Shown here: in pieces, positions 7,311 through 12,116 of the stretch
Layout: each line of letters starts with the position of its first letter
Position numbering within the stretch: the first letter of the stretch is position 1
Source of the DNA: an uncultured Prochlorococcus sp.
GTDB taxonomy: Bacteria > Cyanobacteriota > Cyanobacteriia > PCC-6307 > Cyanobiaceae
NCBI GenBank assembly: GCA_902627325.1
Contig: CACOIM010000010.1
Span: 1 to 35,652 of the forward strand
DNA: 35,652 bases
Direction: 5' to 3'
Translations under genes and position numbers: made by a program
Notes under the pieces: model-generated
Told to the model about the DNA's origin: nothing
Database searches by the model: none
Seen by the model: only the letters and a program-made list of their open reading frames with translations

Positions 7311-8618
7311 TTAAGAATTTCCAAAACCAAAAAATGAATTAGATATGAATAAAAAACTGAAAAATAATAAAAATCCTAATCCAATCCAAGATAGCAATTT
7401 TAAAAACTTACCATACTTGTTTATTTCGGGTACTAAATCACTATTTATTGTATCCATTGCCATCCATGCAAATACAGGCGCTGATAAGAAACTTCCTGTC
7501 ATTGCACCAAATACAAAATCTTTGACTCCAATTCCTCCTGATTTAGCTAAAAGCAGTGCAATTAATGAGGCAAAAATATGAATAACCATCCAGTTCTGAA
7601 ATCTAGTTTGTTCGAAAGAAGATTCTATCCTTCCTAAATCTGTTCCTCTAAGAAGTCCTTGAATTGATGAAATGCTTCTTGGATAAGCATCTAGGCATGT
7701 CAATGTTGTACTAAACATTGCGGCGAAAGAAGCTGGAATTATTATCCATTTTGACCACTCTCCTATTGATTCGGTATAAAGTTTAATTAGATTCTGGGCA
7801 AATGACACTCCACTTCCAGACAACATACCATCACCAGTCCCATACATAGTTATTGCTCCCAATGTTACAAAGAAAATTGCAGTTATTATCGTTATTAAGT
7901 ATCCAAGATTAAAGTCAAATTCGGCTTCTTGAACTGTAGGCCTATATTTGGATTCCTTGTTTTTGGAAAACATCCAAAGTGAAGGCCATACACATAGTTC
8001 AACTGGACAAGGCATCCAACCCATCAATGGTATAAGAAAAGATAAATTAGATAGTCTCCAGGGGCTTGTTTCTGGGTTGAAAAAAGTTGCAGTTAGATCG
8101 TTGTTTAAGCTGCCATTTATTAATAAAGAAATAACTGCGAAAAAAGTCAATATTGTAAGTAAAGAAACCAATATTTTTGATAAATTATCTAAGGCTTTGT
8201 ATTTACCAAATATTAATATAAAGCCACATATAACCAAAACTATAATTGATAAATCCATCGGTGGAAAATTTGAAAATAATGGAATATTTGTCAAAAGAAC
8301 ACCCGAGACGAAGCTAACAGCTGCAATTGTAAAAGTTCCTGTCACTAAACTAATAATCAGAAAGATAGGAAGGTATAAAGAATTTCTCTTCTTAAAACCC
8401 TCTAAGAGTGTCATTCCTGTCGATGCAGTAAAGCGGGTTCCAACAAGTAAGAATGGATATTTCAGAAAATTTGTAATGAGTATTAGAACAATTAATGAAA
8501 ATCCAAATCTTGCACCAGCTGTGGTCGATGACATAAGATGAGAACCTCCAATTGCAGCACCTGCAAAAATTATTCCAGGACCTATAACATTTTGGATTTT
8601 TGAACTAAACAAAGACAT
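7311..8618 (-). CDS. Nramp-fold transporter with altered metal-site motifs
   Basis: A 435-residue protein with about eleven helices. It opens GPGIIFAGAAIGGSHLMSS, which aligns with the first Nramp helix. Nramp proteins (Mn/Fe importers, APC superfamily) have DPGN here; this protein has GGSH. The second metal-binding element, MPH in helix 6, reads MPC in LMGWMPCPVEL. TAGARFGF, ASFAAMFSTTLTCLDAYPRS and the rest of the fold are retained, so it is a divergent subfamily and its substrate may not be a transition metal. It starts with ATG, is monocistronic and has a 137-bp upstream region. A long opposite-strand frame (7948-8541) is a shadow. Confidence 0.82.
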   Translation of the reverse strand: MSLFSSKIQNVIGPGIIFAGAAIGGSHLMSSTTAGARFGFSLIVLILITNFLKYPFLLVGTRFTASTGMTLLEGFKKRNSLYLPIFLIISLVTGTFTIAAVSFVSGVLLTNIPLFSNFPPMDLSIIVLVICGFILIFGKYKALDNLSKILVSLLTILTFFAVISLLINGSLNNDLTATFFNPETSPWRLSNLSFLIPLMGWMPCPVELCVWPSLWMFSKNKESKYRPTVQEAEFDFNLGYLITIITAIFFVTLGAITMYGTGDGMLSGSGVSFAQNLIKLYTESIGEWSKWIIIPASFAAMFSTTLTCLDAYPRSISSIQGLLRGTDLGRIESSFEQTRFQNWMVIHIFASLIALLLAKSGGIGVKDFVFGAMTGSFLSAPVFAWMAMDTINSDLVPEINKYGKFLKLLSWIGLGFLLFFSFLFISNSFFGFGNS

Positions 8619-9418: not shown

Positions 9419-9622
9419 TTAACATTTCATTAGATATAGAATCTCTAGATCTTGTCTGGAGTCAGATATTTTTTTCTTCAAGAAAATTAATTCATCTTGG
9501 CTCATTTTTGATTCCTTTATCATTTCTTCAGCTTGATTAATAGCATGTTCTATATTTTTAATTTTTATATCTCTTATTTGTGGATTAGTTTTGCATGCAT
9601 TAATAGTTGATAAATCTAGCAT
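9419..9622 (-). CDS. Small helical hypothetical protein, 67 aa
   Basis: From an ATG, MLDLSTINACKTNPQIRD is followed by a long charged helix (IKNIEHAINQAEEMIKESKM and SQDELIFLKKKISDSRQDLE), probably a short helical hairpin or coiled coil. An in-frame TTG at 9661 would add 13 residues of poor composition (including VNKKF), so I prefer the ATG. There is no signal or membrane segment. The function is unknown. The candidate sRNA at 9691-9740 lies just upstream on the opposite strand, divergent from it. Confidence 0.62.
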   Translation of the reverse strand: MLDLSTINACKTNPQIRDIKIKNIEHAINQAEEMIKESKMSQDELIFLKKKISDSRQDLEILYLMKC

Positions 9623-9678
9623 TTCTATAAATTTTTTATTTACTTTATAATAGACAAACAAATTTTTAAAGGAATAAC

Positions 9679-9684
9679 TATAAT
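9679..9684 (+). promoter_or_regulatory. Perfect -10 box (TATAAT)
   Basis: TATAAT lies in ...AACTATAATAAAA, about 6-7 bp before a run that ends in an intrinsic terminator at 9710-9740. No good -35 was seen, which is common in picocyanobacteria. Its spacing implies transcription starting near 9691. Confidence 0.5.
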
Positions 9685-9690
9685 AAAATT

Positions 9691-9740
9691 AAGAACCTTA
9701 ACCTTATCTAACCCTACTTATTACCAGTAAGGGTTTTTTT
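9691..9740 (+). ncRNA. Candidate ~50-nt small RNA
   Basis: A -10 box at 9679-9684 and an intrinsic terminator at 9710-9740 define a unit of about 50 nt with no room for a useful peptide. The 5' half is a CU-rich, unstructured stretch with a repeated ACCTTA element (AACCTTAACCTTATCTAACC); the 3' half is the terminator hairpin. This is the architecture of short cyanobacterial sRNAs such as Yfr1, but the Yfr1 core CU-rich motif is absent, so it is not Yfr1. The alternative is a leader/attenuator for the TTG-started gene at 9769. No known RNA family is claimed. Confidence 0.45.
9710..9740 (+). terminator. Intrinsic terminator
   Basis: AACCCTACT (9710-9718) pairs with AGTAAGGGTT (9726-9735) with one bulged A and a 7-nt loop, followed by a run of seven T. 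It is oriented for the plus strand, where no gene precedes it: the upstream gene is on the minus strand. Confidence 0.7.
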
Positions 9741-9768
9741 ATGTAATATTAAAAAAACATTTAAACCA

Positions 9769-10056
9769 TTGGAAGAACCCGAAATTAATCCTGACATTCA
9801 GGAAAAAGTTGAATCTCAAGCAGAAAATGCGAGTGAGCAAATTATTAATACTAATGATATTGAAAATATTGAATCTAATTCTAAGAGTGATTCAATTTTT
9901 AAAAGGGTATTAGAAAATGGTTTTGATGGGATTACTACTAACCCTAACTACAAATTATTAGCTCTTTTAATAATCTTATTGATTAATTTATCTTTATTTT
10001 TTCTAGTAGGAAATTTGGGAAAAACATTTCTTAAAAATTCTGGAATTTTAAGTTAA
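9769..10056 (+). CDS. Acidic protein with C-terminal membrane anchor, 95 aa
   Basis: A TTG-started 95-residue protein; no in-frame ATG is available, because the nearest upstream ATG is followed at once by a stop. The first ~45 residues are acidic and Ser/Asn-rich (EEPEINPDIQEKVESQAENA), then FKRVLENGFDGITTNPNYKL and a single helix (LLALLIILLINLSLFFLVG). It looks like a tail-anchored protein with a cytoplasmic acidic domain. Its C-terminal helix resembles that of the 52-aa product at 10338 (IIALLVVNILVILLL, ending GxLS). The last 4 bp overlap a convergent 48-aa gene. Confidence 0.62.
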   Translation: MEEPEINPDIQEKVESQAENASEQIINTNDIENIESNSKSDSIFKRVLENGFDGITTNPNYKLLALLIILLINLSLFFLVGNLGKTFLKNSGILS

Positions 10057-10337: not shown

Positions 10338-10496
10338 ATGGAAAGAGAACCAGAAAATCCTGTAACTTATTTATCTAAATTGATTAAAAAATTAGATATT
10401 AAAAATAGAAATGGAATAATAGCTTTATTGGTAGTAAATATATTGGTAATTTTACTACTTAAATCTTATTTAATAGGTACAGGACTACTTTCTTAG
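10338..10496 (+). CDS. Single-helix membrane micropeptide, 52 aa
   Basis: A 52-residue ATG frame, MEREPENPVTYLSKLIKKLD followed by a membrane helix (IIALLVVNILVILLLKSYLI) and GTGLLS. It has the same design, a polar head plus a C-terminal helix ending near GxLS, as the product at 9769, so the two may be distant paralogues. It is convergent with the TM2 gene, with a 17-bp spacer. Confidence 0.6.
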   Translation: MEREPENPVTYLSKLIKKLDIKNRNGIIALLVVNILVILLLKSYLIGTGLLS

Positions 10497-11848: not shown

Positions 11849-12031
11849 TTAACTTTCTCCCCATCTTTTTCCAATTTCAAATCCCCATGATTTTGTTAAC
11901 TTTATTACTTCATCATGATTGGAACATTTAGATAGCTCTTCCCTTTTTTCACTAGATTTTTCAATAAGTAATAAGATCTTATTTAATTGATTTATTTTAT
12001 TAATGAATTTCTCAAGATTTTCTTTAGTCAT
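11849..12031 (-). CDS. Nif11-like domain peptide, 60 aa
   Basis: From its ATG, MTKENLEKFINKINQLNKIL is followed by a helix and then DEVIKLTKSWGFEIGKRWGE. This matches the Nif11/nitrile-hydratase-leader pattern of an N-terminal 'LxxFlxkv' helix and a 'vvxlAkexGFxfs' helix. In other picocyanobacteria this domain forms leader peptides of prochlorosin lanthipeptides, but many copies are stand-alone with unknown roles. Here no Cys/Ser/Thr-rich core with a GG cleavage site follows, and no LanM-type modifying enzyme is in the window. I reject the in-frame upstream start at 12067 because it reads into hydrophobic sequence of an overlapping frame. Confidence 0.7.
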   Translation of the reverse strand: MTKENLEKFINKINQLNKILLLIEKSSEKREELSKCSNHDEVIKLTKSWGFEIGKRWGES

Positions 12032-12116
12032 AACTAAAAATATAATATAAAACAAAACCCACTCCAATAATTAGTAAAGCAACTAACAAATTAACTGTCC
12101 AGACAATTTCAATCAT
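12024..12116 (-). CDS. Possible 30-aa single-helix peptide overlapping the Nif11 gene
   Basis: An ATG frame, MIEIVWTVNLLVALLIIGVG followed by FVLYYIFSYD, is a clean single membrane helix. Its end overlaps the ATG of the Nif11-like gene by 8 bp, suggesting translational coupling. Small photosynthetic subunits are this size, but it does not match PetG, PetN, PsbM, PsbT or PsbY as I remember them. It could still be chance. Confidence 0.35.
   Translation of the reverse strand: MIEIVWTVNLLVALLIIGVGFVLYYIFSYD

Follow-up and report, generated by a model that had tools for sequence, protein, structure and literature searches.

I propose that a short intergenic unit is probably an independent small RNA (sRNA) gene of high-light Prochlorococcus, one whose leader would pair with other RNA in trans and whose transcript would end at a terminator of its own. 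The unit was noticed in a stretch of 35,652 nucleotides from an uncultured Prochlorococcus (contig CACOIM010000010.1, called the window below), where an intergenic gap holds, on the plus strand, TATAAT (9679-9684), a 6-nt spacer and about 50 nt that run to a hairpin and seven T (9691-9740; Table 1). According to the model, RNA polymerase would start near 9691, directed by the -10 box at 9679-9684, and transcription would stop at the hairpin and T7 of 9710-9740, giving an RNA of about 50 nt (53-56 nt in HLI/HLII-type relatives). The 19-nt single-stranded leader, with its strong constraint on primary sequence, is the most likely working surface and would act in trans by pairing with a target RNA, in the manner of the short Yfr1 RNA; the main alternative is a partner protein. 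The terminator hairpin would also protect the 3' end of the RNA and keep the transcript out of the downstream gene (DG), which would start from its own promoter. A trans-acting role by base-pairing is chosen because the leader is unpaired and constrained and because the Yfr RNAs provide a precedent. I regard the unit as real as sequence, probable as RNA, and a candidate as regulator.

Table 1. Coordinates of the unit and its neighbors in the window.
Feature	Position	Strand	Remarks
N1, divergent neighbor, 67 aa, ATG 9622	9419..9622	-	no named family above cut-off; search anchor
CAAA tract near -35 position	9659..9662	+	conserved C 96/96, A 89/96, A 95/96, A 95/96; role putative
-10 box TATAAT	9679..9684	+	TATTAT in most relatives; T1 96/96, A2 94/96, A5 93/96, T6 96/96
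variable spacer, -10 to predicted +1	9685..9690	+	commonest base per column 34-72%
predicted sRNA, ~48-50 nt	9691..9740	+	start placed by -10 spacing and the point where conservation begins
predicted single-stranded conserved leader AAGAACCTTAACCTTATCT	9691..9709	+	19 nt; from alignment and folding
terminator hairpin	9710..9735	+	9710-9715 with 9730-9735, 9716-9718 with 9726-9728, bulged A 9729
T7 of intrinsic terminator	9734..9740	+	from the sequence
TAATAT, possible -10 of DG	9744..9749	+	TGTAATATA in HLI/HLII relatives; promoter putative
DG, downstream gene, 95 aa, TTG start	9769..10056	+	TTG invariant 96/96; no named family above cut-off

Chance and conservation

The first-pass annotation had pointed to a perfect TATAAT and, with no intervening gene, a hairpin with a run of seven T. 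All of this holds: the box is there, the hairpin AACCCT.ACT-TATTACC-AGT.A.AGGGTT (9710-9735) is predicted to have 9 bp and one bulged A and overlaps the T7, and no ORF of at least 30 aa is listed on the plus strand between 9326 and 9769. Nor does 9691-9740 contain an ATG, and no plus-strand ORF of that length is listed within the predicted transcript. The fold energy by itself is unremarkable for its composition (-7.7 kcal/mol in the window, z = -0.47, with 67 of 200 shuffles equally good). A simple terminator scan of the window did not list the hairpin at 9710-9735, presumably because of the bulge, and the -10 box at 9679-9684 was absent from the output of a promoter scan. A TATAAT followed within 25-75 nt by a hairpin of -7 or better with T6 is found at two places in the window; 40 dinucleotide shuffles gave 0.10 on average, and four of them had at least one. 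The second place (30018) overlaps ORFs of the opposite strand and looks accidental. The window sequence taken alone is suggestive; conservation in relatives is the decisive evidence, and a chance origin of the unit is rejected on synteny together with the held-out covariance model described below.

Relatives were found by searching for N1 in named genome contigs, and the best 80 of at least 142 were kept (77 from records titled Prochlorococcus and three from Synechococcaceae; two contigs occur twice). The unit lies beside N1 in 78 of these best 80 orthologous loci; a contig end truncates the other two (L041 and L107), of which L107 retains part of the unit. A full unit was present in 107 of 122 loci, some genomes having been retrieved more than once, and the 96 distinct sequences were aligned; L041, L107 and 13 weak BLAST hits were excluded.

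In the 96-sequence alignment the commonest base makes up 80-100% of each column at 9691-9709, as against 34-72% in the preceding six bases. Comparison between clades (16 hand-chosen representatives in four groups) gives ungapped identities of 0.25-0.53 for upstream DNA, values that would rise somewhat with gaps, 0.60-0.86 for the -10 box, and 0.78-0.96 for the 19-nt leader. The spacer stands at 0.36-0.50 in five of the six comparisons and at 1.00 for the pair of the window's clade and G206. A variable spacer between a preserved TA..AT and a sequence constrained from 9691 onward is what a promoter followed by the 5' end of a transcript should leave, and I read it as their footprint. As in an sRNA gene, the -10 box stands at a fixed distance from the conserved position where the RNA is predicted to start.

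In the cultured strain MED4 (G015) the unit lies at complement(968794..968847). The HNLC1 scaffold contains two sets of N1, unit and DG start (L032 and L033), about 637 kb apart, which may be an assembly duplication or a true copy. In G204 the seed is found in two copies, and the second DG match spans residues 1-42 only.

About 1 kb from the unit the window encodes an Nramp-family metal transporter (7314-8618, minus strand; PF01566, NCBIfam Nramp_1), present by sequence in the same-clade relatives L003 and L004 too, whereas the HLI/HLII loci examined have instead what I take, from its sequence, to be an OsmC-like protein. On the plus strand, the small proteins encoded at 9769-10056 and 10338-10496 both have a hydrophobic stretch and similar ends (GILS and GLLS), match no named family above cut-off and may be mutually related. 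At 11852-12067 on the minus strand lies a gene for a Nif11-domain protein (PF07862); proteins of this type are often leaders of ribosomal peptides.

Covariance model, distribution and hairpin

A covariance search of other Prochlorococcus genomes had been suggested in the first-pass annotation, and it recovers the unit. The model, R1, was built from 53 distinct HLI/HLII-type sequences with the window's clade held out. It matches the window at 9691-9741 with 40.0 bits, the next best match there having 14.7, and it matches five related loci at the corresponding places; all six matches rest on the leader and the base of the stem, the inner hairpin being left unaligned. Throughout the genus, R1 finds 199 of 266 genomes at E <= 1 and 174 of 266 at E < 1e-3 (a hand count from the table), although one of the 174, G020, is really the terminator of another gene. 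Among genomes at least 90% complete, 77 of 87 have a match at E <= 1, three of them weak (G104, G036 and G261). Many genomes are incomplete, so a miss by R1 is not proof of absence.

Several lesser matches deserve comment. Those in G063, G257, G104 and G105 each mark the terminator of some other gene, while the one in G088 is the unit itself, truncated by a contig end. In the window's own genome (60% complete) the next R1 matches were rejected as paralogues: the one of 24.8 bits is the terminator of a gene, and the one of 20.1 bits is a coding-looking stretch. G146 has a second, weak match (L192, about 1501-1556; 28.4 bits) that contains the leader-like AAGAACTTTAACAATAGCTA but differs in its hairpin and T-run; it may be chance or a distant second copy.

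Outside the genus, a draw of 300 genomes from the family, searched with R1 under stricter filters, gave two weak matches (E 0.07-0.1). N1 itself ranges more widely: its matches in a family draw come from 52 of 151 genomes, six of them in this genus. Of 24 loci from other genera, 22 gave N1; the DG motif was found within 1500 nt in none of the 22, and the unit was not seen by eye within 250 nt. DG was matched outside the genus in a single genome, weakly. In viruses, two contigs contained the 21-base pattern, both spanning the end of an unrelated coding gene and neither with the N1 or DG motifs. As judged by these searches, the unit is found in one genus only and appears to be a genus-restricted candidate.

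The first-pass annotation's unstructured leader followed by a terminator agrees with the predicted folds. A hairpin is predicted in all 22 sequences taken from 17 HLI/HLII-type loci (chosen from the 53 distinct ones), four of the window's clade and G206, and the leader is predicted to be unpaired in 20 of them, the exceptions being L092 and L051. Two divergent sequences were also folded, L285 with a hairpin and L282 without.

Compensatory change is less telling. Among HL-type genomes the paired share of cells is 96.4%, and double changes occur in two pairs (C-G to U-A and U-A to C-G), each value being reached by 14 of 500 shuffles. When the structure is slid by -3, -2 and +1 columns, 3, 2 and 2 double-change pairs result, as many or more, so the count lends weak support. 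The slid structures pair at most 49.8% of cells, though the reference structure derives from these same sequences; the share of paired cells is the clearer support. Compared by hand, both arms of the inner stem vary between clades: ACU/AGU in the window's clade, CUC/GAG in HLI/HLII. Stem counts were not taken from MAFFT alignments, which misplace the hairpin of the window's clade because it is 3 nt shorter. The hairpin evidence supports a terminator and is silent on the role of the leader. As would be expected of an sRNA gene, the terminator appears to be kept in relatives, and it is decayed in four of five divergent genomes. The proposal of a candidate sRNA of about 50 nt is supported by conservation and by the held-out R1 model, and weakly by covariation of the hairpin.

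Independent transcript or attenuator

A function in cis is conceivable, since the unit lies directly upstream of DG in the loci examined. The unit might be an attenuator or riboswitch-like leader of DG, such that transcription from 9691 ends at the hairpin unless a signal permits read-through. The order of promoter, hairpin and DG is fixed in the loci examined, and within the window's clade a pairing of the leader with the terminator's 3' arm is predicted at -7.4 kcal/mol, against -7.3 for the terminator itself, a competing pairing matched by 37 of 500 shuffled leaders (63 of 500 for L004). This pairing fades to -6.7 in G206 (173/500), -5.1 in an HLII sequence (252/500) and -2.2 in MED4 (404/500), while the leader stays conserved. 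No conserved antiterminator pairing was found across the five sequences tested; one is possible in the window's own clade.

Then there is DG itself, whose TTG start lies 28 nt past the T-run. The T-run is followed by TGTAATATA in most HLI/HLII relatives, by TGTAANAT in the window's clade and by a different stretch in G206. The motif past the T-run and the invariance of the TTG in all 96 sequences suggest that a promoter belonging to DG itself lies directly past the terminator. The promoter-like motif and the TTGGAAGA start are kept in five divergent genomes (G061, G154, G226, G104 and G105), and the hairpin has decayed in four of them (-1.3 to -1.0 kcal/mol; -3.9 in G154). It is this survival of the downstream motif where the hairpin has decayed that favors an independent sRNA over an attenuator. 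The group to which such loci belong (L231 and L233-L236), divergent within the genus, with a decaying unit and a preserved downstream motif, amounts to a natural experiment on cis versus trans. Weaker matches to DG, at E near 1e-7, are not DG as judged by the motif, and G135, G075 and G139 have no readable upstream stretch.

Terminator-type attenuators resemble the unit in having a promoter, a short leader and a terminator just upstream of a gene. The unit differs in that the alternative pairing is not kept (five sequences), there is no leader peptide, the leader having neither an ATG nor a listed ORF, and DG apparently has its own promoter. I consider an attenuator, which the first-pass annotation had offered as its alternative, unlikely, less likely than an independent sRNA, and least disfavored in the window's own clade, where the leader pairing gives it some standing.

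It may also be asked whether there is a functional RNA at all. The unit might serve as insulator only, a weak promoter plus a fail-safe terminator lying between divergent genes. The hairpin and T-run would then suffice to account for the changes in the stem, and a degraded or weak unit is tolerated by five divergent genomes, a fact that counts against the sRNA reading too. But an insulator does not account for a 19-nt leader, outside the stem, that is 78-96% conserved between clades, above upstream DNA. I give this explanation very little credence.

The leader, known RNAs and possible roles

How the leader of the proposed sRNA would act is less certain than that it is conserved. It had been called CU-rich; it is rather G-poor, with pyrimidines at only 10 of its 19 positions. 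The repeated ACCTTA noted at the outset is an exact doubling in the window's clade and in G206 and is not exact elsewhere. The idea that it pairs with purine-rich ribosome-binding sites fares poorly, both because the exact doubling is not kept outside those genomes and because, in four genomes, antisense matches to TAAGRTTAARGTTC with at most one mismatch numbered 32, five of them the locus itself, as against 47 for a reversed control. Predicted duplexes with Yfr2, Yfr5, Yfr10 and Yfr10-like RNA were reached by 52-271 of 300 shuffles.

Another view is that the RNA acts not by base-pairing but through an RNA-binding protein, for which it would be a decoy or sponge. The leader is conserved and unpaired with no sign of conserved targets, and no Hfq was found in any of seven genomes searched (one just 60% complete; the control was positive in 5 of 14 known genomes), all of which would suit it. 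I know of neither a protein partner nor a binding motif for the leader, and I consider this view improbable. With more doubt than I attach to the sRNA gene as such, I would suggest an unnamed trans-acting sRNA, encoded at a single locus throughout high-light Prochlorococcus, the clade of iron-poor waters (HNLC) among them, that has an unpaired 19-nt leader, an inner stem that varies between clades yet stays paired, and a setting in which Hfq was not found.

Is the RNA already known? Rfam 15 has no match in the window, the best score at 9600-9800 being 17.6 bits against a threshold of 56.4. The Yfr1 motif, ACTCCTCACAC, has no match in the window with at most one mismatch, bearing out the earlier remark that the unit has the size and plan of Yfr1 without its motif. 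Yfr1 is described as a 54-nt sRNA between guaB and trxA with two stem-loops, located in MED4 at complement(1000744..1000797) (PMC1242208), and is reported throughout cyanobacteria (PMC2518516). The two have in common their size, an unpaired stretch, a 3' intrinsic terminator and an intergenic place. They differ in that the unit lies elsewhere in MED4, has one stem-loop and is found in one genus, while Yfr1, as described there, has two and is cyanobacteria-wide.

Yfr2-Yfr21 are short RNAs of MED4, those of the 2008 set described as mostly confined to high-light strains (PMC1242208, PMC2518516). None of the MED4 rows for Yfr1-Yfr21 in Table 2 of Axmann 2005 (PMC1242208) and Table 1 of Steglich 2008 (PMC2518516) overlaps 968794..968847, a comparison confined to those two tables and separate from the 276 units of the 2008 array; the nearest among Yfr2-Yfr21 are yfr5 (972088..972176) and Yfr18 (972284..972388). 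Yfr28, as described by Lott 2020 (PMC7368042), is present in HLI and HLII, where its synteny is likewise highly conserved, but it is 72 nt long and nitrogen-induced, and has ftsQ and ftsZ, on the opposite strand, as its neighbors. The Yfr10 of MED4, by its Rfam match, lies at 346661..346738. Yfr22-Yfr27 are said to come from Voigt 2014. An earlier description of the unit is possible, as this comparison stops short of the start sites mapped in MED4 by Voigt 2014, the candidates listed by Lott 2020 and the five ncRNAs reported in Wang 2014, and for that reason I make no claim that the unit is unpublished.

The 2008 array study allows that very short RNAs and RNAs near protein genes may have escaped it (PMC2518516). 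The candidate sRNA is both very short and close to a protein gene, hence of the class prone to escape, and its exact place is known in MED4, a strain in culture. Prochlorococcus is described as having few regulatory proteins, most strains being reported to lack Hfq (PMC2518516), and sRNAs may for these reasons carry much of its regulation.
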